Shown: positions 3,049 through 57,795 of the stretch, piece after piece
Layout of the letters: the number at the start of each line of letters is the position of its first letter
Numbering within the stretch: the stretch's first letter is position 1
Source: Punica granatum
Lineage: Eukaryota; Streptophyta; Magnoliopsida; Myrtales; Lythraceae
DNA length: 64,000 nucleotides
Direction: 5' to 3'
NCBI RefSeq assembly: GCF_007655135.1
Contig: NC_045129.1
Coordinates: forward strand, 28,273,122-28,337,121
Translations under genes and position numbers: made by a program
Notes under the pieces: model-generated
The model's input: the letters and a program-made list of their open reading frames with translations, nothing else
Told to the model about the DNA's origin: nothing
Database searches by the model: none

Positions 3049-6000
3049 ATGGCGAAGCTCGGTGGGAAGGTGGGCCACCAAATCGCTCGGTTTGGCGGGA
3101 ACGGGGTGGGCCAGATTCTGGCTGCAGCCGCCGTCGCCCTCCTTTTCCGCCTCTTCTCCGGCCCCGGCCCCGCCATGCTGCCGGAGGAGGAAGAGGACGA
3201 GTTCCTGCCCGACGAGAATGGTGAAGGGGAGGAAGGTAAGGCAGATGACGAGAGCGGGGAAGCTCCGGTCGCTGGGAAAGTTTATCCCGTCACTATCCGA
3301 TGGGCCGGCATCAGTTGCTCCATCTCCGATAAGTCGAACAAATCAGTGAGTTCCTCTATCGTCAGAAATTTTCTTTGGATGTAGGAATGAAGAAATTTTA
3401 GCTCGCCTATTGTTATTTCAGCTTGTTAGAGTAGCAGTTTTGTGGGTTGAGTTGCCTTCTGTTTGATACCATGAAGAATGGAATTCAGTGACAAATGGGT
3501 TCTGTTTCGTGCTATTAGATGAGGTTCTTGCTCAAGAATGTGAGTGGAGAGGCGAAGCCCGGGAGGCTGCTTGCTCTAATGGGAGCATCGGGTTCGGGGA
3601 AGACCACTTTGCTCAATGTTCTGGCGGGTCAGCTCGTAGCGTCTCCCCGGTTACATTTGTCGGGTCTTCTTGAGATCAACGGAAGGCCGAGGTCGAATAA
3701 GTCCTACAAGTACGTTTGCTCTTGGAAGCATCTTTTGTGGGACTGTCAGATGATTTACTGGGATTTACTTATAGTCATTGTTTTATTTGCAGATTTGCTT
3801 ACATTCGACAGGATGATCTTTTCTTCTCTCAGTTGACGGTGAGGGAGACGCTGTCTCTGGCTGCTGAGCTTCAGCTTCCAAAAACCTCTTCCGGTGAAGA
3901 GAGGGATGAATATGTGAACAATCTTCTGTTCAAACTTGGCTTGGTCAGCTGTGCTGATACAAATGTTGGTGATGCAAAAGTCCGTGGCATTAGTGGAGGT
4001 GAAAAGAAACGACTCTCGCTCGCTTGTGAGCTGATTGCAAGTCCTTCAGTAATTTTTGCAGATGAACCCACAACAGGTATGCATTCATTCTATCACAAGT
4101 TCTTACATTCTTCCGATGATAGACTTTTACCACCTTTTAAACTTCCTGAGGTACGTTAATGCATTGTTCTTGTGTCTTGAAATATTGATCTTCGAAGTTG
4201 AAAAGTTGCTTATATGAGAGGGAATTTTAATTAGTGAAGGGCTATGCCAGTCATTGGAATTGGACAATCGATTGAAGTGCTTGATCGAACATAAACATTT
4301 ATACACACTTCGATGAATTCCTAATGAAAATGTGCAGTTTCAACTCCTATAACTGTTGAATAATACTTTTTCATGCAGTGCATGTTCACGCAACAAAGAG
4401 GCACTTCACTAATTTATTGTCAAAATAGACGCCATTTTGAGCTCTTATGGACTTGCATGTGTTAATACCATAGACAGATGTAAAGATTGTAAAGATCTGA
4501 AGTGAGCCGTGAAAGTTTCTTATATTTTAATTATATTTTTTTTTATTGTTTATTTATTATAATGATCATTCTTTTTGCCGTAAGCAACGCTGCCACGTGG
4601 AAGTGCCGATGAAACAAATAGGTTAATAATATAGATAATCTCGATAAATAGCCAAATGCAATATGCTTTTGTTTCTTTCATCTGCCATCTATATTATCTT
4701 CCTTGTAACAAGATTAATTCGGTCACTTCAGGACTTGATGCCTTCCAGGCTGAGAATGTAATGGAAACTCTTCGACAACTAGCACAGGATGGCCATACAG
4801 TGATATGCTCCATACACCAGCCAAGAGGTTCTGTATACTATAAATTCGACGACATGATACTGCTAAGCGAGGGTGCACTTGTCTATGCTGGTCCTGCACG
4901 TGATGAACCTCTCGCATACTTCGCGAAGTTTGGGTTTGTATCTAAACCTATTTGACTGTTGCATGTTGCAGAATGCTTCTGGAACCTTTCTTTGACCACT
5001 GTTGAGATACCTTACCTTCATACATCTCAATTTCAAATCTATGAAATATAATCATGACCACTGATATAATCATGATTGGCTACTGCTTGAAGCTTATAGG
5101 CGAATGATTTTATGTGCCAAGGTAAAGGTCATGATTTGTTCAAGCACAACTTTTGGTGTCACTAGTCTCTTGATTCTCAAAAGCCATTTGGGCCCATGCA
5201 ATAAATCTATCTTTCTAGGAGGAAAAGAATACCATTTCAGAAACGAGCAATTTGCTGCATCCAGAAATGCTCCCTGAAATATTTGACTGAAATTGAGAAA
5301 AAGGAACATAAAGGATTAACATGCTACATGCCTATGCTTCAAAATTATATTTCTGCTGCTGTTTGTAAGCCTGTACCTTGAACAGTCAATACCTCTGGTT
5401 GTCCCAAAAATCTCTGGAAGAAACTGCTTTTGGTGAAGAAAAAATGCCTTATGATTGAATGATGAAAAAAATAACCCAGGAAGTGGAACACGGTGATTGG
5501 CAAAATGCTTTTTTTTTGGACTACTTTTCATGGTACTTTGCTACATGACTATTGTTCCGACTTCCCTGTATCTTATCCGCACAAAATTTGTCCTTTATAC
5601 TTTTGTAAAAAAATGACATTTTCTGCAGTTACTTATCTTGTGTGTTGCCTTAACTGCATCCAGCTTGACATGCCACTGATCTTTTGATACACTTGCAAAT
5701 GGAAGTCATAATAACCGATCTATCATTCATTCCAACAGGTACAGCTGCCCGGATCATGTGAATCCTGCTGAATTCTTGGCTGATCTCATTTCTATAGACT
5801 ACAGCTCTTCTGAAAGTGTGTATTTTTCTCACAAGAGGATAGATGGTCTTGTTGAGTCATTTGCACAGCAGAATCCTCCAATACTATATGCAACTACTCT
5901 GACCAGAATGGACAAATTCAAGGCTGGTATAATGTCTTCGAGAAAGGGAACTATTGTTCAGAGAAAGGGAGGTTGGTGGAGACAATTTTGGTTGCTGCTG

Positions 6001-12700: not shown

Positions 12701-13110
12701 TAGGGGTGTCAATTCGTGTCGTGTCGTATTTATACGTGTCGTGTCTAAATGGATTCATATCATCGAGGTCATAACTCATACACGATATGATTATTAAACG
12801 GGTCAGGTTTCACATACACGAACACGACACGATTATATCCATGTCAACCCGTACACGATACGTTTAAACCCATTTATTAAAACGTGTCATAAAGGTACAC
12901 GTATACACGACACGATTATAACCGATACCCAGACACGTTAACACAACCCGTTTACCTGGCACAACCCGTTTATCCGATTAACCCGTTTACCCGGACACGT
13001 TAACACGATTCGTTTATCCGTTCAACCGGTTACCCAGACACGTTAACACGACCCGTTTATCCGTTTAACCCGATTACTCGAACACGTTAACACGACCTGC
13101 TTAAAGTTTT
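12701..13110 (+). mobile_element. hAT-type terminus with clustered CCGTTT motifs
   Basis: The left end reads TAGGGGTGTCAATTCGTGTC, typical of plant hAT inverted repeats, and is nearly the reverse complement of the right end of the element at 44922-46308. Inside, the phrase ACACGTTAACACGACCCGTT recurs several times and at least five CCGTTT (reverse AAACGG) hexamers occur between 12900 and 13090. AAACGG is the known Ac transposase binding core, so this looks like a subterminal binding array. I could not find the opposite terminus or an 8-bp duplication. Confidence 0.6.
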
Positions 13111-15826: not shown

Positions 15827-17290
15827 CTTATCACAAGAAATTAATCAATGCTTTGACATAAACTTTAATGATTCGAAATTAACATGCGCTAGTCTATTAT
15901 GCCAAAATGTGAAAGATGAATCAACAACATAAGCATAAACGAGATTACTATTATTATTATTGTTACACATACATAACTTGACCATCCCATCACAACAGTA
16001 CTCTTTCTTGACAAAAATCCCATTCTTAGACCAATAACTTGTCGGACTCTAACATAGCCTTGACACCTTTTTTTGGACAAGAGAGAAGCGGAAACTAGAT
16101 TCTTTCGAATCTCTAGGACATATACATCAATTTCTTCCCGGAAGTGAATTGGAGTTCCACGGTCCCTTTGCCAAGACCTTTGCAATATCTTGATTTCCCA
16201 TCATCACAACATCATTTTCGACAGCGTCTACCAACTCCTTGAATTGAGATTTATCGTTGCAGACATGAATGGACGCACCCGAATCATACTATCAGTAAGA
16301 GGATTTCGCTCCAACCATATGGACTTCACTTATCATGCTAATATGCACTTGAGAAATCATAGCAACAATTTCCTCCACGTCTTGTTCGACGTTGTTGACA
16401 TTATTATTCTTGCCATTCTGCCCTCTCTTTGCCTTTAGGAATTTGCAATCCCTTTTAAGATGGCCTTTCTTGCCACAATGATAGCATGCCAATCCTTTCT
16501 TCTTCTTGGCATTATTGTCATTGCTTTTGTTGGGTTCACTGTTGTAGACCTCAGAAAACTCTCTTTTCTTTTGACTTTTGGGAGTTATTTCCCGAAGAGG
16601 CCAAGTTTACTTTCGAGCTAGAAGTTTCATTACTTTTCCTCTGCAGATTGCGAGTTTCCTCTTCAACTTGCAGATGTTTGAGAATCTACTCTACAATGAT
16701 TTCTTCGATGGTGTACAACAGTTTCTTTCAGTAATCATGCCAATCGGGAGGCAACTTCGCAATTATTATTCCCACTTGCATTGATTCAAAAACATTCATT
16801 TTCACATCTTTCAATTTGGACACAAGCACGAGTAAATCGTGCATTTGGTCCACATAGAAAAATGATCTACCATATTAAACTCATAGAACTTAATTATCAA
16901 AAATTCATTCACACCTTGCTTCTCAATTTTGTACTTATTTTCGAGCCCTTACCAAATCTCCTTCGGGGATTTCACACGGAGAGATCGTAAAGACGATCTG
17001 AGTGAGTGTTGAGAGTGTGACCCCTGCAGAGAACTTCATCTTCTTCATGCTTCTTTCGTTCAACCTTCACTTGTTCGGTGTCGTTGTCTTGCGGTGCAGA
17101 AACTTCCGGTAGAGATGGATCCAGCACGTAGGAAATCTTCAGTGCAGTGGGAAAGAACATCATCTTGTCCTTCCAACAAGAATAGTTCGTCCCATCGAAC
17201 TAATCCAACTTGATGAAGTCCTGGTTCATCATCTTGAAAGCAGTTTCCGATCCTGTCTCCATCGCCATAATCACCTTAAGATTGTTGAAT
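15827..17290 (-). pseudogene. Ty1/copia gag-pol relic (gag, zinc knuckle, pre-integrase region)
   Basis: On the minus strand the order is gag start near 17268, gag core around 17163-16972 (YVLDPSLPE, EEDEVLCRGH), zinc knuckle CYHCGKKGHLKRDC (CX2CX4HX4C, about 16448-16486), then a region with EIRKNLVSASLL (about 16100) and FWHNRLAHVNFESLKFMSK (about 15850-15900), the GAG pre-integrase box. An in-frame stop follows the first 20 codons or so, and others follow after SPKEIW, with frameshifts. Integrase, reverse transcriptase and LTRs are absent because the left side is cut at 15826 by another element. It is a dead fragment. Confidence 0.88.
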
Positions 17291-19886: not shown

Positions 19887-20983
19887 ATGGCTCATGTAGT
19901 ACATGGAAGGATGGAGATTGACGTCGGGATCAGATCTCCCACAGACAAGTTCCACAACCTGTTCACGTGCAGGCCTCAATACATCCGAAAATGTCCTCTC
20001 CGAAATTAAAAGATTGCAAGCTGCACGAAGGAGACTAGGGAAAGGTCGGCTCTGTAATCTGTTGGCATTATGTCGAAGGCAAGGACACACACACACACTA
20101 TATATATATATATATAACATTTATATAGCAACTTCTCCCCTTGATGTCCATTGGAACAACTAGAGTTGTTTTCAAAACACTCGTATATGTGGCTTAATAT
20201 CGGGTGGAATTCATATAATTATTTAATAGACTTAGTTATATTTTCGGCTCCATCATTTCGATACTGTTTTATACGTAAAAGTTGAGGTTCTACAGAGCTC
20301 CTTATCGACGAAAGATTGATATCCTAAAGGCAATATATATGTACATGTCCTCTTCCCTGCGCAACGTATTATTAATAGCTCAAAAGGGATATCCTAATAA
20401 TATTAATATCCCGAAGATTCTTCTTATCATTAACCTTTTAGTCTTGAAGGATTAGTGGAATCAGTAAATGAAAAGTCATACCTTCATTCGATCCATTCAT
20501 AAAGCGGTTGCTGGATCCTATTTGTTATCTGTATAGAAGATAGTGTTCATTAATTATATTGCAGTTTCTTTGGCTTTGTGGGTTTAGTTGTTATTTTATT
20601 TTATATTATTTCCATTCCTCCATTGAAGTAATATCGCAAGCAAATCATCAAAGAAATCCTAACCCCTCGCAACTATTTGTTCGTGCAATTGAAATGTCGA
20701 AGATGGAGAGAGTAAAGTTGCAAAGAAGAAAATCGAGGCCATAGATGATGAGAAGAGTTCCACCACCTTCAGAGTTATCGAAGGTGATCTGATGAAACTG
20801 TACAAGAAGTTCATTTTAATCATTTAGGCCACTCCGAAGGAGGGGAGTACTGGGGGCGTCGCGCGCTGGACACTGGAGTATGAGAAGCTGAGCGAGAAAG
20901 TCCCGAAACCCTAAATGCTCATGTTCTGTGTCGATGTCACCAAAGACATTGACTCTCACCTGACATCTGGGGCTGGGGCCTAG
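19887..20983 (+). pseudogene. MLP-like (Bet v 1 superfamily) pseudogene, two exons
   Basis: Exon 1 (19887 to about 20079) starts MAHVVHGRMEIDVGIRSPTD and continues KFHNLFTCRPQYIRK, matching the first exon of major latex proteins. A one-base loss then shifts the frame, after which DCKLHEGD, a stop in place of the usual Trp, and GKVGSV are readable. Exon 2 (about 20703-20983) reads DGESKVAKKKIEAIDDEKSS, FRVIEGDL and LEYEKLSEKVPKP, ending in VDVTKDIDSHL, with in-frame stops after FILII and after VPKP. The exon 1 donor position reads GC instead of GT. The breaks are independent, so the copy is dead. It belongs to a more divergent subgroup than the intact gene at 26463-27311. Confidence 0.88.
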
Positions 20984-23547: not shown

Positions 23548-23715
23548 GGTAAATTACACTGGTGGTCAAAAAAAATTTAATAATGTATCAGATTGGTTCA
23601 AAAAGTTTTTTTTGCTATTTGATGGTACAAAATGTTTCAAAATTGTAATATGATTGTACAAACCGTCATCTCGCTATTGACGCCGTCAAGCGACGCTGAC
23701 GTGGCCGAAACAGTA

Positions 23716-23809
<94 letters not shown>

Positions 23810-24054
23810 TTCTCTCTTCTTCTTCTCTGTCTCCTCCTCCCCTCGCCCTGTTCCCGAAGAAGAAGAAGAAGAAAGAAGAGAGAGAGAGAGAGAGAGAGAG
23901 AGGTTATTGTTTCGGCCACGTAGTGAGCCACGTCAGCGTCGCTTGATGACGTCAATGACGAGATGACGGTTTGTACTATCATGTTATAATTTTGAAACAT
24001 TTTGTACCATTAAGTAGCAAAAAAAAAATTTTGGACCACCAGTGTAATTTATCC
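23548..24054. mobile_element. Mutator-type MITE, 507 bp, with internal (CT)n/(GA)n
   Basis: The left arm begins GGTAAATTACACTGGTGGTC and the right arm ends GACCACCAGTGTAATTTATCC in mirror. Further in, GTCAAGCGACGCTGACGTGG pairs with CCACGTCAGCGTCGCTTGA. The flanks are a direct repeat, TAAAAATTAA, at 23538-23547 and 24055-24064 (10 bp, of which 9 may be the real duplication). The centre is a long CT run (23718-23806) facing a GA run (about 23878-23902), so the whole element can fold into one hairpin. Open frames here code only Ser-Leu or Arg-Glu repeats and are not genes. Confidence 0.85.
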
Positions 24055-26462: not shown

Positions 26463-27311
26463 TCATGTCGATGCCGTGTAGGCATGGGCATCGATATCTT
26501 GACTCACGCTGACGAAGAAGTCCATGTATTTGTTGGGAATCGGTGCATCCTCGTTCACCCTCTCATACTCTACGCCCAACTTCGCCACGGAACCCTTGTT
26601 CTTTGGGACAACCTTGCATGTTCCCCGGTAGACCTTATACTCGTCAAAAACATCTCCCTCCATGCCGTGGATGGTAACAGTCATGTTGGCATCATCAAAC
26701 TCCATCTTCTCCTTGAACACAGCTGATTTTCCATCTGCATACGAAATCATAGGATTTTCCACAAAATATATATGGTTATTGATCGTCAAAGTGCCAATAT
26801 TCTCATGATATATATTGGAAGGACAGCCGGTAAATGGAATCGATGCGGTGTTATGGTTAAGATACATCTGATCCGTGCAATTAAAACCTAATGTATGGTT
26901 CTGATTTATCTCAACCACATACTAATGAAGAAGCTTCATTTTGAGAAACTTACAATGACCGTTAGGAAGGAAAATCGCACTGCACGGCTGGACATTATTT
27001 ACAAATATCATAACATGTCTGATGCATCGGCATCGGGTCGGAGAGACTCGATATCTCATTAATTGACATGGAGCTCTAAGTCAAGGTGCATGTTTAAGTA
27101 TGGCTAGCTTACCGAGGGTGTAGTTCCAGCGCTTGATAGCTCCATTGGTGTGCCAGTCACCTTCATGAAGAGCTACTGCCTGAATGTTTTTTGACGAAGC
27201 AGTGGGGATCTTGTGGGACTCCTTCCTCCACAACTTATAGTAATCAGCTGCACTCGATTTCAGGTCGATATCCTTCTGCAACTTCCCGCGGAGTGCCTCT
27301 GGTGATGCCAT
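26463..27311 (-). CDS. major latex protein (MLP)-like, Bet v 1 fold
   Basis: Exon 1 (27113-27311) and exon 2 (26463-26734) flank a 378-bp GT-AG intron and give 156 residues, the normal MLP length. The start MASPEALRGKLQKDIDLKSS, the loop region ALHEGDWHTNGAIKRWNYTL (about residues 47-66) and the second-exon motifs EFDDANMTVTIHGMEGDVFD and LGVEYERVNEDAPIPNKYMD match the family. The intron sits after the WNYTL codons, as usual for MLP genes. Members are cytosolic, hydrophobic-pocket proteins linked to ligand binding and stress or developmental responses. The ligand here is unknown. A solo LTR stands 113 bp upstream of the ATG, so most of the original promoter is separated from the gene. A broken relative lies 6 kb away (19887-20983). 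Confidence 0.92.
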
Positions 27312-27424
27312 TGTAACTCTTCGTCTAATGAACTGGTACGTTTCTTTTCCTAATATGTATTTATATATTTTATGGATACTGATTACCTGATATTGAGACT
27401 CATATTAACAGCAAAATTCCTAGA
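27312..27424 (-). promoter_or_regulatory. MLP core promoter remnant with TATA box, cut off by solo LTR
   Basis: On the minus strand, ATAAAATATATAAATACAT at about 27355-27373 is a good TATA match about 50-60 bases before the start codon, implying a short 5' UTR of about 20-30 bases. Only about 50 bp of native sequence remains upstream of the TATA before the LTR begins at 27425. The displaced native upstream DNA resumes at 31333. Confidence 0.6.
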
Positions 27425-28439
27425 TGTGCGCACCCGAATTTCGTCTCGTCGGGGCACGCAATGCGCGAAGCCTCATTGCAACGCGGCTTGGGAGTGTCCA
27501 CCTTCCCGGGGACGCGCGACGGACGCACGTGAGAAGGAGTCGCCACTTGCCATTTTACGACCCGAAAGTCGAGGGCCGGCAAGTTACCCGGGTCTAGGGG
27601 TACGGGGTACACCTAAATGCTAAGGCAATGATCATGCGGAATCGAAAATTCCGAATTCGGGGGTTCTATTACGTGCGGGCCTACATCCCGCACGCCCTTT
27701 CGGTACTCTAGCTTGCTAGGCTTGCCGTTTTGTTTATTTACCGTATGATTTAAGGTTGCACTTGACTCGCCCGTTTTGACACCGTAAATTCGTAAGCACT
27801 CTCAGGCCTTTTCTGCTTATCAACCGGGATCCTTACATTGACCGAATGAAAATACAGGTATGCTTGCATAAATGAAGATACAGACGCTTGTACTGTGTTT
27901 TGGATCCGGTTGATTTGCATCAAGCCAAATATTCCTCTCGTGCATGCCGTGAGTCTTGAAGGACCGAAATAAAAAATAATGCAACGCGGGCTCATGGAGC
28001 CGGTGGTCGGGTCCGACCGGACCGACGGATAACTGAAGAATCGTTTGACTCTTGAGACAGCCGTGGGACAGGTCGAGCTCCCGGGTCATGTCCTGACCAC
28101 GACTCATTCATCCTATCCGAGTTGTCTTTCCATTTAGACATCACTAAGATTGGGACGTTGAGTCGAGGCAAGACCCGATGCCGCACTCGGGTTGCGCGCT
28201 CTCAATGTGCATGGGCGTTGGACCCCGTGATATCGTTTCCTATGAGTTCAGGCTTGAACCGCGATGAATACAGCAAATAACAGAAAAGTACATGTTGCAA
28301 AGAGCACGTATTATCATGTTGCATACATATAATTACATAAACAAAATTATTTAAATGAGGCGTATGCGTTATCGGTGGGGAATCCAAGTAGGAAAAGCGA
28401 TTGGATATCTTTGAAAAAATGTTCGCAGACGGATTTGGA

Positions 28440-28690
28440 TAATTTTAAAGAACAGGGACGGATTTGAAAATTCGAAAAGTTCAGGGATTGGTTTGAAGAT
28501 TCAGAAAAGTACAGGGACTGGTTTATAAATTCAGAAGAGTTCAGGGACTGATTTGCAAATTCAGAAAGGTTCAGGGACTGATTTGCAAATTCAGAAAGGT
28601 TCAGGGACTGATTTGCAAATTCAGAAAGGTTCAGGGACTGATCTGAAAATTCTAAAAGATGAGGACTGATTTGAAAATTCTAAAAATTGG
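28440..28690. repeat. 30-bp tandem array inside the solo LTR
   Basis: About eight units follow TTCAGAAAGGTTCAGGGACT plus GATTTGCAAA. Three consecutive units near 28550-28640 are identical and the outer ones are diverged. The array continues weakly to about 28900 (words such as GGACTGA.TTGAAAAT). Confidence 0.85.
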
Positions 28691-29419
28691 GACTGTGTAA
28701 AAATTTACTGAAAATGCCCTAGGACTTATTTGAAATGGAATTGAAAATCAGGACTGATCTGAAAGATAGAAAAAAGAGGCCCGAGGACTAAACTGAAACA
28801 ACTCGGAAAGTTTCTTGGAATGCTAGAACAATTCTGGAAAATTCAAGGACTGATTGAAAAATGATAAAGTGACCGGGGCTTGATTGAAAATGATTTTGAA
28901 ATTCGGGGCAAATCTTAAGAAAATAAAAATACTTCTTCTGGACTGAAATGTGACAAAACAGAAAGTTTGTAAAATCGAGTTCGGAGACAAAACGATCACC
29001 CACGCGACTCAAGAACATACACTGCACATTATATCCATCAAGAAAGCAATAATATTCAGGGAATGAGCCCTAATCATGCCACTAAGTTGAGAATTTACCT
29101 AGTTCGGAAAGTTGAGGGGTGATTCTGTAAATAAAAAAAAGTCAAAGATATGCTGGGCGAGTTTGACCGGGGGGTCTGAACAGTATCGGGCCGGTCTGAG
29201 CTGGATTGGGCCGAACTCCGATGGAATGGACTGGGCCGAATGGAAGATTGGGCTTCGGAAGGATGGATGGGCCGAAGTTGGCGGACTGGGCCGGACCTGC
29301 AACAGAGAAATAATGGGCTAGTCCCGAGATGCGGGATAGGGCCTTCAAGAGTCGGGCTGGACCGTTGCCGAGTCGGGTTTGGGCTGTTTTGGCTTGCACA
29401 GACCCGAATGGTAGCAACA

Positions 29420-30470
29420 GACCCGACTGGAAGGGTGGACAGGCCCGACTGGCACAAGTCGGGTCGGACGTCGCCACGGAGGCTCCCGATGGAATTTTGA
29501 GGCAAAGTCGGCGGCATTGGACTCCTAACTGACTGAGGAGCACAGTGATAGGTGGCTCGTAGCGAGATTCAACCCGAGCTGACCTGTGCGTCCCTTCAAA
29601 GTTCGGATCAGAAAAGACGACCAGAGGAACAGGCCCGACTGGCACAAGTCGGGTCGGACGTCGCCACGGAGTCTCCCGATGGAATTTTGAGGCAAGGTCG
29701 GCGGCATTGGATAGCCAAGGGACTCCTCTAGGTGACGGTGGTGGTCGTTTGTTCCCAGAGTTGTCGGGTCGACCCGTACAGTCCTGCAAAAATCACCGAA
29801 AACAGAGCACGTCTGGAAACTAGCCCGACTGGGCAGTTTTCGGGTCGGAATTCATAACGGTGGATTCCGATGGAATATTTGAGCGAGGTCGGTGGCTCCC
29901 GACTCCTAACTGACCCCTGGAGGTGGTCGAAGTGGTCGTTCGTCGAAAAGGGTCACGGATCGACCCGATCTGCAAGAAAACCGAACAGACAGTCAGAAAC
30001 GCCGGCCCAACTGAGCAGTTTCCGGGTCGGAATTCATAACGGCGGATTCCGACGGAATTTTTGAGCAAGATCGGTGGCTCCCGACTCCTAACGAACCCCC
30101 GGAGGTGTTTGATGGGTTTTGAAAGTTCAGACCGACTCGAAAAGGTGAGAAAACAGGGCTGGAAGTTTTGACCCTGGAAGGACCAAATCTGTCCAGATTT
30201 GTTCAAGGCTGGTTCTATGGCTTAGAGGCTTCAAACTTAAAATCTAAGCTCAGAAATGGATAGAGGGGGTCGAAAACATGTAGAATATGAAGTTTGGTGA
30301 AGTTTGCTTAAGTCGAGAGGGAAGAACTCGCATAGAAACTGGGAAAACGCTTAAGGGACCGCCTCTGGACAGGGTTGGTTTGGCAAGCTAGAAGCTTCAA
30401 ATCACGAAACTAACACCGGAAATGGACTCGGGAGGTCGAATACATGTGGGATATGAAGTTTGGTTGAAGT
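29420..30470. repeat. about 190-bp tandem repeats inside the solo LTR
   Basis: Four imperfect units begin near 29435, 29630, 29820 and 30000. Each runs through GGGTCGGA, a GGA.TCCCGATGGAATTTTGA-like core and GGTCGG.GGC. Two further related units near 30200-30300 and 30370-30480 share GTCGAA.ACATGT, GATATGAAGTTTGGT and GAAGTTKGCT. Open frames crossing this array are shadows of the repeat. Confidence 0.7.
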
Positions 30471-31547
30471 TGGCTACGGTTGGGTGGCGGTCGCCGGAAA
30501 ACGGGATTGGTTTGGCCTTGTTTGGCCTGGTTTCTGGGCTGAGGGGCTGAGAGATTTTTCGAAAAATCGTCGAGCTGTGGATTTCTCGGTCGTAGGCGAG
30601 CTGGAGTTTTCCGGGTCTTGTTTGTCTGTGAGCTCCGGGATCTTTTTTGTCTGTCCGCTCTCCCCCCCGGACGAGCTGCGGGTTTTTGTCCGAAAAGAAA
30701 AATCGAGAGAGAGAGAGAGAGAGAGTGCGTTTGCGTGTTCGAGGAGTCGCGTGCGCATAGGGGTTGGCGTGCGGCAGGCAGGCTCGGGCGCAGCGGCAGC
30801 AGAGGTCCCGAGACCGGCCCGTCCCTGCCAGGAGGAAGAAGAAGAAGAAAAGAAAAGAAGAAGAAAAGAAGAAGAAGACAGGAAGAAGAAGAAACGATGA
30901 AGAAGAAGAACAGGAAAATGGGGGGAGGGGGGCCTGGTCAACGGTCAAAGTTGTCAGACTTTGACCGTTTGACCCTTTTTTTTTTTTGACACGCGTATAA
31001 ATTGAAAATTCCATCTTCTTGATCGGACGTCGAAAAAATAATTCGAGATTGCCATCGTGTTCAGAAAAATTCGCTGATCGATATTGTGCGATGAATTTAT
31101 TTTCAATCTCGAATTTTGTCCCGAATTTTGAAAATTGACGTCGATGTACGCGAAATTCGAAAATGTCTTAAATAAAATTAGTGTTAAATTAGGCAAATTG
31201 CTATTTCCAAAAATGTCCTAAAAAGTCGTGAATACTCGAGTAATTAATCGGAAATATTTCCCTCACGAGTGGTAAAAATGGCGATTTTGCCCCTCTGGAG
31301 CCGGTGGACCAAAATTGGGTGCTGACACTAGATATATATGTGCCACCGTTCGAGTATGGGTTTTACAAATATTTATTTCAATTTACATTCATGGCCCCAC
31401 AAGTCATGATTCACGTGGCTTCATAGACGCAAATAAATCTAGGAATTGGAAGAAAGGGGGCTTGATATAATTGTACTATTTTTCAACTTAGAATTAAGGT
31501 AACTTTTGATATACCGGAAAAGAATGGAATAGAATTAGTTTCACAAA

Positions 31548-31734
31548 ACTAACGTATGGATTGGTTCAAGTGGTTCAGCGCTTATTCCGTTTAAGCAAGG
31601 TCTCGGATTAGAGTTCTTGTTAATTCAGAAAATCCACGCTGAGAGCTTACCCTTAGTGGACCGACCCGGCTCGATTAGATTAATCGTGGCCTAATTGAAC
31701 TTCTGGATATCAGGGTTTATATATAAAAAAAAAA
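31548..31734 (+). mobile_element. tRNA-derived SINE, 187 bp, 17-bp target duplication
   Basis: An A-box-like TGGTTCAAGTGG lies at 31562-31573, and a B-box-like GGATTAGAGTTC lies about 32 bp further on. The body has GACCCGGCTCGATTAGATTA, and the element ends with an A tail. The target duplications are agaattagtttcacaaa (31531-31547) and agaattagttttacaaa (31735-31751), one mismatch. This is the clearest full-length copy in the window. Confidence 0.88.
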
Positions 31735-31751
31735 AGAATTAGTTTTACAAA

Positions 31752-41264: not shown

Positions 41265-42180
41265 TGTCTATTAGAGCTCATTTGTGCTATAAATAGTCTT
41301 AGGAATATAAATTTTTTAGCATGAAAAACAAAAGCATCAGTGAAGACAACCCTGATAAAAAACTAATAAGTTTATATATTCATATATTGGCCTAAGCCAA
41401 TTCTATAATTCACTTAAGCAAATCTAACTAAAGGGATAACGAGTAATTGTTAAAGACTTTGAGCAATAATGGTTTTGGTCGATAGAATGACTTGCCAAGG
41501 CCGACCTTCATATTCTATTCTTATTTATAGTCTCGTTTATTGATGAATGCAGCAATGATGATGACCATTTAATAGAAACAAATATTTGGAATATAGCTAA
41601 CTTTTATTTTGTTTATTTATATTGGCACAAGCTAAATGTAATGTCTGTTAGAGGTCATTTGTGCTATAAATAGTCTTAGGGATATAAATTTCTTTAGAAG
41701 AAAAAACAAAAGTATCAGTGAAGAGAACTATGATGAAAAACTAATGGGTTTGTATATTTATATATTGGCATAGACTAATTCGATAATCCATTTAAGCAAA
41801 TCTAACTAAAGGAATAACAGCAAGTAATTGTTAAAGACTTCAAGCAGTACTGATTTTGGTTGATTGAATGACTTACTAAGGGTGGCCTTCATATTTTATT
41901 TCTGTTTATATCCCAATTGTTGATGAATGTAGCAATGATGACGACCATTTAATAGAAATACATATTTGGAACAAAACTAACTTTTATTTTGTTTCTTTAT
42001 ATTGGGTCAAGTTAATTGTCATGTCTGTCAGAACTCTAATAGTCTTAATAATATAAATTTCTTTAGGAAGGAAAACAAAAGTATCAGCGAAGATGACCCT
42101 GATGAAAAACTAATAAATTTATATATTTATATATTGATCTTGACCAATTCTGTCATTCGCATAAGCAAATTTAATTAAAA
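41265..42180. repeat. about 378-bp tandem repeat, 2.4 units
   Basis: Units begin at about 41265, 41642 and 42022 with TGTCTRTTAGAG.TCATTTGTGC or its shortened form. Each continues through CTATAAATAGTCTTAG.AATATAAATTT, AAAACAAAAG.ATCAG.GAAGA, CTAACTAAAGG.ATAAC and GATGAATG.AGCAATGATGA. The third unit is incomplete. Units one and two are similar along their entire length, so the array is fairly young. Two units contain a TATA-like CTATAAATAG. Confidence 0.88.
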
Positions 42181-42989
42181 AGATAATAGCGAGTTATTAT
42201 ACGGTTAGAGGTAAATTACAGTAAGAGAAATTGTATCTTTCATATACCCTTGATTGGAACGGAGGTTATCTATCATGAGGAGACCGCCCTCATTATCTGG
42301 GCAGTGACGCCAAGCAGTCCCTGTGTCCGTCCAAGAGAAGGCAAGGGGAGGTAAAAAAGGGGAAAGGGAGAAAAAAAGAAGAAGACCACCGGGAACGAAA
42401 ATAACCGGAATATAGAGGGGGATATAGGCTTTTTGATCCCGGTGGAGGTGACATCCGATGTACCCGGCCGAAGCCAGATGCGCCGGTGAGAGGGCTCTGG
42501 TTAGGATTTTTCTCTAGAGGCGCAGGAGTGGGAGAGAGGAGGGAGAATTCTTCTTTTTTTTTTTGGTCTTTATTCACAACCCCACCTCAAATATTGTGCA
42601 TGTCAAAAAAGATTATCTAATATGTATTGATAAAGTGATCTTTTTTTTGTACGATAATGCAGAGTATATGGGTGCTGCTCCCCACAACTATCTTCCAGCT
42701 CACGGGACTTGAAAACAAGGCGCTCAAGCGTACAAGCTGTCCAATAGGAGTAACCTTTTTTTTTTTTTTTTAAACCATGATTCACGGCAACCTGTATTAA
42801 AATTTTTAGCAGCGTTGTATGATCACCTGCCTAACCTTTTTGGATTAATAAAATGAACTTTATTTGGATTAATAAAATTCAAAATTTTGTTTAATTCATA
42901 ATTTCCTAAAATTGGGATAAAGTCTACATACTTTTAAGATGCGATTGAATTTTAAAAAATGGATAAGAAAATAGCATAAGAAAATGGCA
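42181..42989. other. intergenic with a GC-rich block, no gene recognised
   Basis: The block 42270-42545 is relatively GC-rich and has a 94-codon minus-strand open frame (42293-42577) rich in Pro, Ser and Leu without family resemblance. It may be the leader of a retroelement. The rest is AT-rich. Confidence 0.35.
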
Positions 42990-44921: not shown

Positions 44922-46308
44922 TAGGCCGATAATATTTGACACGACGCGATAACATGACACGGAATTAAACATGTTCGGGTTAGACATTTTTTGTATTCAA
45001 TCTAAACGGGTCAAATCCGTTTAGATATGGTTAATAAGTGTGTCTTATCGGATTGAATCCGTGTAATTCGATTATACACAATTAAACTTGTTTATTTAGA
45101 TGTGTTTAATCATGTTACTATAATTGCGTAACCCATTAATCCGTTTATGTATCTGAATTTATCAAAATATCCTTATGTAACCTCCATAACCTAATTTCCT
45201 TCTAATCCCTCCGAGTTCCAGCCTCCACATTCTTCCCTTCCACGCGACAACACTCAAGAGTCTCAAACAAAGACGACCTCACCTGAGTCACCTCGATCGA
45301 CCTCGGACCTCGCAACCCTCGAGCCCTCTCTCCGATAGACGAAAACGACCTCACCTCGACTTCAGATGAAGATGACCTCACCTTGACCTCGAGGCTCAGA
45401 CGAAGACGACCTCACCTTGACCGCGCGACCTCGACCCCGACTCCACCTCACGACCATGACTATTTCTCTCTAGCTCGCTCTCAGTGCTCGATCTCTCTCC
45501 ATCTCTCTGTCTGTCTTGTGTAGTTTCTCTATTGGACGAGCTACTGGACGAGCAGGCATCCCGTGGTGGTGAGAATTGTAGACGCCGCAGTGAATCGTGC
45601 TTGATGTCGCCACATACTGATCAGATCTGATCGTATTTCGAATTCAGGAGCTAGGTTTCTATCGGTAAAGGATACTTCTTACTCGACTGTGTGCGCCTAA
45701 GGTTTAATTAGGTGGTAGGTGATGAAACTCCACTGATTCGCTGGATGTGTTTGATTTCGGATTGAGGAATTTGATTATGTGAAATTGCGTCTCCTTGATC
45801 TAATCGGAATTTTGAAGTGTATCGGGGAGAGCTCTGTTGAGCGTGTTCTTTCATTTCTCTGCATTTTACAGAAGTGGACAGTGGTGCTTGATCTTTTGTG
45901 ATTTGTTTTGGATTGGTGCAATATTCTATGGATTTGTTCTGGCAATTGGGAAGTGATTATGGATTCGATTGTATAAATGGTAAACATGTCGTGTTAACGT
46001 ATTCGGATAACCGGGTTGAACGAATAAACAGGTCGTGTTAACGTGTTCGGACAACTGGGTTAATTGGATAAACATGTCGTGTTAACGTGTTCGGATAACC
46101 ATATATAATCGTGTCGTGTATGGATACATGTACCTATTATGATACGTTTCGATAAATAGATTTAAACGTGTCATGTACGGGTTAACACTAATATAAACGT
46201 GTCGTGTTCGTATTTTCAAATCCCGACCCGTTTAATAATCGTGTAGTGTACGGGTTATAACTTTGACGATACGAGTCCGTTTAGACACGATACGAATTGC
46301 CACCCCTA
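44922..46308. mobile_element. hAT-like non-autonomous element, 1387 bp
   Basis: The right end is ACGAATTGCCACCCCTA, in reverse complement TAGGGGTGGCAATTCGTATC, a classic plant hAT terminus. The left end starts TAGGCCGATAATATTTGACA. The 8-bp flanks TATGAGCC (44914-44921) and CATGTGCC (46309-46316) agree at six of eight positions. Both subterminal zones carry GTGTCGTGTTAACGTGTTCGG-type words and CCGTTT hexamers. The interior has no transposase, only a CT-rich leader-like block with a GACGACCTCACC.TGACCTCG repeat (45260-45450). Confidence 0.65.
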
Positions 46309-56579: not shown

Positions 56580-57668
56580 TCAGAAGATGTGCACGAAGAT
56601 GGCCGTGATCACGATCATCGCCTTGAAATTCTTCATTGCAACCGCATTATTTCCCTGACCGTTTCCACCAGTAGGTGGATATGACCCATCTCCTCCCTTC
56701 CGGTTGCTCCCCTCGAGAAGGTCACCGACTCCGTGGACAACAATCCACTCGTTCTTGTACAGCTCAGGGCGGACAATCGGAACCTTATTGACCATCAGCT
56801 TATTATCATTTGATTTCGTGACATGAACCCTGAACCCTTTACGGTAAGTCGGTATTGCAACCGCCCCATTCTCGATATCGACCAGATCTCCCCACAAGAG
56901 CCTGCAAGGGACGGTGTGTTGGAGAAAGATTGAGGGGTACTCGCCGAAATTCCGGACTCTTTTGGTGATCGATTCATCTATCGGGGCAAAAATTGTCAGC
57001 AGAGTTGCTGGGTTCTCGATACCGAGCAGTTGCATCCCGAGGATCGAAGCCATCACTGAGTATCCTGAAGATCTCATCACCTTCGAGGCCTTCTCGAACA
57101 AGTTATCTGCTTTAAAGTTAAAACCAGACTTCTGGCTATTCTTTATGGAGGACGCACAGAGAAGGTTGGGTGTGCGGTGGCCCTGGATCGGGACGGGGAG
57201 CTGGAAGCTCGAGTTGAAGAACTCATCAGCCCCGAAGACGACCAGCGAACCGTCGGAATAGAGTGGAGAATTGGTGATCCTGACGCCGTTGAGGGAGACG
57301 CGGGCGTCGCGGGGCAGAGTGGTGACGACAAGGGAGCGGTTCTCGAGGACAGTGGGGATCTCGGTGCCGAAGGGGAGGGAGCGGAGGAACTGGGAGGAGA
57401 GGGAGAGATCGGAGAAGTGGAATTGGAGGAGGGAGAGGGAGGGCTGGCCGGAGCGGGAGAAGGCGGAGTCGCGAGGGGAGAAGACGGTGAGGGAAGGCGA
57501 GGGGGGAATGATGTGGGTGTCGGAGATGAGGTCGAGGGTGAGGCCCATGGAGGAGAAGTGGGCGTCGGAGAGTACCTCGGCGGCTTTCTGGAGGTTCTCG
57601 GCGGGAGAGGTGACGGCAGAGGTGGAAGAGAGGAGGAGGAGAGAGAAGAAGAGTGGGGCTGCCGCCAT
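56580..57668 (-). CDS. fasciclin-like arabinogalactan protein (FLA19/20/21-type), two FAS1 domains
   Basis: A single exon encodes 362 residues. A hydrophobic signal peptide (about 1-19) leads into a first FAS1 domain (about 27-150) with the H1-type motif LTVFSPRDSAF near 60-70 and a second (about 185-320) with LLTIFAPIDESI near 223-234. Between them are N-glycosylation sequons (NRS, NSS). A Gly/Pro/Ser-rich linker (about 322-343) precedes a C-terminal hydrophobic tail (AMIVITAIFVHIF) that could be a GPI-anchor signal, although it is short. There are few classical Ala-Pro or Ser-Pro arabinogalactan repeats, as in the divergent FLA19-21 group. The product is expected at the plasma membrane or cell wall with an adhesion role known for the family. 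Confidence 0.9.
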   Translation of the reverse strand: MAAAPLFFSLLLLSSTSAVTSPAENLQKAAEVLSDAHFSSMGLTLDLISDTHIIPPSPSLTVFSPRDSAFSRSGQPSLSLLQFHFSDLSLSSQFLRSLPFGTEIPTVLENRSLVVTTLPRDARVSLNGVRITNSPLYSDGSLVVFGADEFFNSSFQLPVPIQGHRTPNLLCASSIKNSQKSGFNFKADNLFEKASKVMRSSGYSVMASILGMQLLGIENPATLLTIFAPIDESITKRVRNFGEYPSIFLQHTVPCRLLWGDLVDIENGAVAIPTYRKGFRVHVTKSNDNKLMVNKVPIVRPELYKNEWIVVHGVGDLLEGSNRKGGDGSYPPTGGNGQGNNAVAMKNFKAMIVITAIFVHIF

Positions 57669-57795
57669 TGATGGAGCTCAGCTCAGAGCTTTCACGGGGT
57701 TTCGGTGACTCTGTCGTCGGGAGCAGAGCATAGGGGAGTTTGTTTCTGATTGGGGAAGGTTTTGGCGGGAAATGAGATGACACGTGGCAGGGATC
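57669..57795 (-). promoter_or_regulatory. FLA promoter with G-box, E2F-like and CCAAT motifs
   Basis: Palindromic CACGTG (within ACACGTGGCA) lies at 57781-57786. TTTCCCGCC on the minus strand (about 57763-57771) resembles an E2F site. CCAATCAG on the minus strand (about 57747-57754) is a CCAAT box. All fall within about 120 bp of the start codon. I see no convincing TATA box, so initiation may be TATA-less. Confidence 0.5.

Follow-up and report, generated by a model that had tools for sequence, protein, structure and literature searches.

The window analysed here is a stretch of 64,000 nucleotides of the pomegranate (Punica granatum) genome (C3:28273122-28337121, contig NC_045129.1). It carries an intact gene for an MLP (major latex protein)-like protein on the minus strand, and the promoter of this gene has been parted into two pieces by a solo long terminal repeat (LTR) of 3.9 kb, which is oriented like the gene, is flanked by a perfect 5-bp target-site duplication and ends 113 bp before the ATG. 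Judged from LTR-free paralogs in the same genome, the LTR sits inside the core promoter, immediately 3' of the place of the native TATA box. It is probable from this arrangement that the native control has been lost and that the expression of the gene is weak, silent or re-wired.

The solo LTR in the window

The LTR occupies positions 27425-31327 of the minus strand (3,903 bp), with its 5' end at 31327 and its 3' end at 27425, and on the plus strand it begins with TGTGCGCACC and finishes with GGTGCTGACA. The target-site duplication, CTAGA on the plus strand, is found at 27420-27424 on the gene side and at 31328-31332 on the far side; 5-mers spaced 3,908 bp apart are shared by chance at 362 of 200,000 random positions of the window (0.18%). 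When an intact copy of the same family was taken and its interior compared with the window, no match to an internal region was found, and the element, having both termini and the flanking duplication without an internal region, is a solo LTR. The minus-strand direction, which is that of the gene, is assigned because of the sides on which the primer binding site (PBS) and the polypurine tract (PPT) lie in nine intact copies. A 30-bp tandem repeat of 7.7 copies is contained within the LTR (28453-28680). An earlier note, made from the letters of the window, had described a solo LTR with both termini and a perfect CTAGA duplication, lying in gene orientation and leaving 113 bp before the ATG. All of this holds: 26 other copies have the same ends, the nine intact copies give the same orientation, and the duplication ends at 27424 with the ATG beginning at 27311.

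The MLP promoter and its paralogous empty sites

On C6 (18.37-18.71 Mb) there is a cluster of MLP genes to which the dispersed MLP gene on C3 is related, and the promoters of its paralogs serve as empty sites. The two flanks of the LTR were joined without the LTR and without one copy of the duplication, which places the junction at joined position 2668, and were aligned to the flanks of the paralogs. Alignments in one piece run through the junction in L043, L045, L046, L047 and L050/L051 (the last two being one place); for example, joined positions 2544-2988 align with L047 662-1122 at 82% identity. L040, L042 and L044 match both sides in pieces, and L041 matches at the junction on the gene side only. 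In addition, searches with each flank were made through the whole assembly (320,430,517 bases in 474 contigs), and at L045 the first 126 bp of the far flank match C6:18506860-18506986 (84%) and the gene-side flank matches C6:18506996-18507320 (81%), up to 4 bp from the LTR, so that the two matches are just 9 bp apart. The retained leader and core promoter of 113 bp (27312-27424, minus strand) aligns with paralog promoters to 4-6 bp from the LTR, and on the other side of the LTR, directly next to it, stands the displaced proximal part of the native promoter (31333-31458, minus strand), which shares 84% identity with the L045 promoter. The paralogous empty sites on C6 show that the LTR parted two pieces of one MLP promoter, and they bear out the claim of the earlier note that the gene is cut off from its original upstream DNA.

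The far-side search gave 44 matches from 40 scored of 1,062 candidates, and the gene-side search 23 matches from 13 of 13. A second copy or haplotype of either flank free of the LTR was not found in the assembly among the matches listed; the sole 100% match among them is the window itself, and the rest lie at 73-85%. It is very improbable that the structure is an artefact in which a full element was collapsed to one LTR or two sequences were joined chimerically. The assembly is scaffolded, and the LTRs of intact copies, being 0.05-0.92% apart, could be collapsed by assemblers, but the duplication is exact, the paralogs show that both flanks belong together and eight other solo LTRs have exact duplications as well; moreover, a collapsed full element would still split the promoter at the same place.

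A promoter homology extending about 400 bp beyond the LTR was also considered and was rejected, since the stretch 215-405 bp out is made up of a dispersed repeat (31547-31737, about 190 bp) that matches dozens of other places in the genome at 76-83%. This repeat also occurs at the equivalent position upstream of several C6 MLP paralogs. The specific homology adjoining the LTR amounts to 126-131 bp, and a further piece, 1425-1902 bp out, matches the upstream DNA of C6 paralogs at 73-75%.

TATA words and the probable loss of native control

Eight paralogs (L040-L047) were scanned for TATA words; L050, whose promoter carries an insertion, was left out of the scan. All eight have a TATA word at about -102 to -132 from the ATG, at the insertion point. 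In six of them TATATATAAGGG begins at -113 to -132, while in L044 the word is TATATAGGGA, a run of TATATATA that closes with AGGG at about -102, and in L041 it is TATAAAGACG at -121; at the native TATA place L050 carries TATATATAAAGGG and the joined window reads TATATATCTAGGAATTTT. Because the LTR entered at the duplicated TCTAG (in the sense direction), the native TATA hexamer and the G-box lie on its far side. The native TATA position, TATATATC, is stranded at 31331-31338 (minus strand, the hexamer being 31338-31333), and the native-promoter G-box CACGTG, which five of the eight paralogs also have, is displaced by 3.9 kb to 31412-31417.

The earlier note had placed the LTR about 50 bp upstream of the TATA box of the gene. 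There is a TATA-like word at 27367, 57 bp away from the LTR, yet the native TATA position is elsewhere. This secondary word, TATATAAATA, was found in the promoter scan at 27358-27367 on the minus strand, -56 from the ATG. At the aligned place L046 and L047 have TATACAAAAATA, L045 has AATACAAAAATA and L040 and L042 have TATACAAATA, so L045-L047, the three paralogs whose promoters match best, lack the word. The T that completes the TATA word is a C in L040, L042, L046 and L047.

The course of events that best explains these observations is as follows. A retrotransposon of a young, non-autonomous family of pomegranate, resembling large retrotransposon derivatives (LARDs), inserted into the core promoter of the dispersed MLP gene immediately downstream of the native TATA box, and recombination between its two LTRs would then have removed the element body and left one 3.9-kb LTR in gene orientation. 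Transcription from the native start site would then no longer be within reach of the native TATA and the G-box. Should these still fire, transcripts would start within the far end of the LTR and run through 3.9 kb that hold a poly(A)-type signal and, up to the ATG of the gene, 35 upstream ATGs. Native control would thus be lost, and the most likely outcome is weak, silent or re-wired expression that relies on the LTR, on the secondary TATA word left in the 113 bp next to the gene, or on both. The loss of native control overlaps in part with the alternatives weighed here, namely a gene driven by the LTR, a gene driven by the secondary TATA word and an artefact.

Several points weigh against a loss of native control. 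The gene itself is intact and may do with the secondary TATA word, and some TATA word occurs between -23 and -43 in four of the eight paralogs (L040, L042, L043 and L044). Furthermore, the C3 copy already had TATATATCTAGG before the insertion, not TATATATAAGGG, and its TATA may have been weaker than those of the paralogs before the LTR arrived; since both copies of the duplication carry the change to CTAGG at the target, it predates the insertion, provided that the state of the paralogs is the older one. As to the intact frame, it is no evidence either way, because only about 5 substitutions are expected in the coding sequence since the insertion.

The TATA words at -23 to -43 in these four paralogs would also support a near-neutral insertion, in which the secondary TATA (27367-27358) was or became the working core promoter and expression stayed roughly unchanged apart from the lost upstream elements. 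We regard this as unlikely. Although TATATAAATA makes a good TATA word, placed at -56, and the intact coding sequence gives the annotated protein, a leader of only about 25 nt would result, the 60 nt before the ATG hold no TATA[AT]A in L045, L046, L047 and L041, and the TATA at -102 to -132 in every paralog scanned and the displaced G-box also speak against it. It is more doubtful still that the promoter was rescued, that is, that after the insertion a substitute TATA at 27367 came up or became fixed within the remaining 113 bp and a core promoter was regained under the influence of the LTR; what suggests it is that aligned paralogs have TATACAAAAATA or TATACAAATA where the window has TATATAAATA.

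Upstream ATGs, poly(A)-type signal and possible read-out from the LTR

The retained leader contains an upstream ATG with an upstream open reading frame of 6 codons (27383-27403, minus strand), which L045, L046 and L047 (3/8 paralogs) have alike at the aligned place, and any unspliced transcript from upstream of 27403 carries it. From the start of the LTR to the ATG of the gene there are 35 upstream ATGs, 17 of them in the last kb. The LTR also has an AATAAA poly(A)-type signal sense to the gene (27733-27738, minus strand), identical in 26 of 26 copies. This AATAAA at 27738 was considered as a specially conserved terminator and was rejected, as 55% of the 6-mers in the last 700 nt of the LTR are equally conserved.

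These features bear on the possibility, a minor one in our judgement, that a promoter in the LTR now drives MLP transcripts by read-out, with a gain or change of expression. The LTR is oriented as the gene is and its end lies just 113 bp from the ATG, it shows little methylation decay, with a CpG observed/expected ratio of 1.10, and retrotransposon insertions are reported, in excerpts of two papers, to act in this way at fruit-colour MYB genes (PMC10249860, PMC6445120). However, the sense strand of the LTR has no TATA[AT]A[AT] word, weaker words being found at 29033, 28527 and 28331, and the RNA would have to cross AATAAA at 27738 and then five upstream ATGs before the gene. Methylation decay was likewise tried as a sign of silencing and was rejected: the 13 C>T/G>A changes on the window side, which are window-private or not polarised, fall 3 in CG, 2 in CHG and 8 in CHH context, no excess in an LTR with 494 CG, 400 CHG and 990 CHH positions. 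The sequence thus gives no sign of long-standing heavy CG methylation of the LTR, though the time has been short.

Age of the insertion

The four LTRs nearest to that of the window (L016-L019) differ from it by Kimura two-parameter (K2P) distances of 1.2-1.5%. The window LTR differs from the columns where these four agree at 41 of 3,655 sites (31 of these changes are placed with the window, 7 with the sisters and 3 are unclear), and its private branch is 1.06% (1.06-1.07% with one LTR per element). Plant substitution rates are 7e-9 to 1.3e-8 per site per year. With these rates the private branch suggests an insertion age of at most about 0.65-1.5 million years, an upper limit because some of the substitutions may precede the insertion. 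The substitutions agree with the earlier note in that the insertion is not very old, but its argument from the identical duplication does not carry, since 17 of the 18 family loci, the window locus counted, have an exact 5-bp duplication. Within an intact copy the two LTRs are 0.05-0.92% (K2P) apart, and at most 0.32% in eight of nine. A greater age of solo LTRs than of intact copies was rejected: the first comparison (p = 0.001) was unfair because each LTR of an element shortens the branch of its partner, and with one LTR per intact element p was 0.047 or 0.108, depending on the LTR kept.

The LTR family in the genome

The family search, for which the first kb of the window LTR was the query and 40 of 4,469 first-look candidates were scored, gives copy numbers that are lower bounds. 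There are at least 42 matches, namely 27 at 97-100% identity including the window itself, 13 at 83-85% and 2 short inverted pieces. The comparison of copies was made with the 26 other close copies (97-100%), the matches at 83-85% being left out. All 26 finish with GGTGCTGACA and 22 begin with TGTGCGCACC, the start deviating by one or two bases in L010, L015, L029 and L030, and their LTR length is 2,147-3,892 bp. They make up nine pairs, that is, intact elements, and eight singles, that is, solo LTRs. The LTRs of the pairs are separated by 10-13 kb, their inner sides showing PPT-like and PBS-like sequence, and exact 5-bp duplications flank eight of the nine pairs (4 of 5 bases agree in the ninth) and all eight singles.

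On the minus strand the intact copies read ...GGTGCGCACA then GCT TGGCGACTCCACTGGGG on the PBS side, with TGGCGACTCCACTGGGG in six of nine and a ...CCGCTGGGG variant in three, one of them a base short; on the PPT side the purine-rich AAAGAGGGGCAAGC stands directly before TGTCAGCACC. The PBS is putatively of the tRNA-Arg type, which would fit a gypsy partner of the Tat type (Tat/Ogre lineage). tRNA-Arg is named among the primers used by non-chromovirus gypsy elements in an excerpt of PMC6317226.

Interiors were read in two of the nine intact copies, about 0.4 kb of the ends being unread in the second. The Pfam search gave no match above the cut-off in 15 open reading frames (ORFs) of at least 90 aa in the first interior, where two ORFs had weak sub-threshold matches to families other than those of transposable elements, and none in 6 ORFs of at least 110 aa in the second. 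When the two interiors (about 7 kb) were compared, one half was 99.8% identical over 3.3 kb and the other 94%. The 94% half carries a tandem-repeat array of about 1.6 kb (L036:1641-3263, L059:129-1710). As judged from these two of nine intact copies, the family is non-autonomous and LARD-like. It resembles LARD-type derivatives in its very long LTRs and in its interior, which spans about 7 kb and lacks coding domains in the copies read, whereas a mobilising, autonomous partner was not found in the two interiors. In an excerpt of PMC7061868, PLE/LARD elements are given as 17.86% of the 'Tunisia' pomegranate genome. Another MLP-like gene, L052 (C2:26763661-26763945), lies about 5.7 kb from the intact copy L013/L014, probably by chance.

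The MLP gene and its relatives

The MLP gene has two exons, exon 1 at 27113-27311 with the ATG at 27311-27309 and exon 2 at 26463-26734 with a TGA stop (both on the minus strand), an intron of 378 bp and a product of 156 aa. The gene is of a defence type and belongs to the Bet v 1 / PR-10 superfamily; its two exon frames match Bet_v_1 (PF00407) with 86.8 and 69.4 bits (cut-off 22.4). The product does not differ from P0001, for which NCBI has the name "MLP-like protein 328 [Punica granatum]", so that the gene is intact, as the earlier note had it. The best paralog of the exon-2 frame (75%) lies in the C6 cluster. The closest whole protein is P0002 (81%), whose first exon matches L040, whereas the closest promoters are those of L045-L047, and in the protein tree the placement of the gene among MLP proteins has a support of 0.19 only.

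Against the six paralogs with a clean gene model (L041, L043, L044, L045, L046 and L047), dN/dS is 0.21-0.55 at dS 0.25-0.57; L040 and L042 were left out, L042 having a stop in exon 1. Coding constraint was rejected as a sign of use, as nearly all of the time covered by dN/dS predates the insertion.

An MLP-type exon 2 remnant with in-frame stops is found 5.5 kb downstream of the intact gene on the opposite strand (window 20696-20981, plus strand; matching C3:28293817-28294086). Moreover, P0007 and P0009, labelled 'MLP family protein [Clostridium perfringens]', come from contigs of 671 and 399 bases and are 75% identical to the plant protein; these records are most likely plant DNA contamination.

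Other features of the window

The window also contains ABC transporter exons at 3519-4955 (plus strand; ABC_tran matches at 3519-4159), a fasciclin-domain protein in one open frame at 56580-57677 (minus strand) and an ORF with a CCHC zinc knuckle at 16292-16606 (minus strand), perhaps a retrotransposon gag remnant. Repeats include an inverted repeat at 23594-24038, whose 112-bp arms are 89% complementary around a CT-rich stretch and which looks like a hairpin of the miniature inverted-repeat transposable element (MITE) type, an inverted dispersed repeat about 80% alike at 12732-13103 and 45981-46297, 33 kb apart, and a unit of about 375 bp in three tandem copies, 75-78% alike, at 41291-42198.

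Relation to known systems and significance

Solo LTRs and LTR elements in promoters are already well documented, and the pomegranate case is set apart by the 3.9-kb LTR and by the hit at the TATA position. In grape, as far as an excerpt of the paper goes, the Ty3-gypsy element Gret1 lies in the promoter of VvMYBA1 near the coding region (alleles VvMYBA1a and VvMYBA1b), and recombination between its LTRs is thought to have left a solo LTR in an allele that is expressed (PMC10249860). The pomegranate gene likewise has a solo LTR in the promoter near the coding region. However, the Gret1 LTR is 824 bp, with an allelic series and a phenotype known, whereas the pomegranate LTR is 3.9 kb, sits at the TATA position itself and is known from one assembly. 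In apple, redTE is an LTR element upstream of MdMYB1 with a 5-bp duplication, reported as an enhancer in the part of the paper available (PMC6445120). The pomegranate case shares the LTR element and the 5-bp duplication upstream of a gene, but redTE is intact, has LTRs of 1,274 bp and lies 3.3 kb from the ATG, outside the core promoter.

In the open-licence library searched no paper was found that treats Punica granatum together with LTR retrotransposons and solo LTRs. Papers on pomegranate and major latex protein there concern allergy, proteomics or tissue culture, with none on this gene by title and start of abstract, and a search for Punica granatum with MLP-like protein gave nothing beyond a pine study. 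The MLP allele of the reference ('Tunisia') is a probable regulatory variant, and its presence in other cultivars can be scored by PCR. In addition, since paralogs with the same promoter architecture but without the LTR persist in this genome, the effect of a solo LTR on a plant core promoter can be studied here as a natural experiment that contains its own controls.

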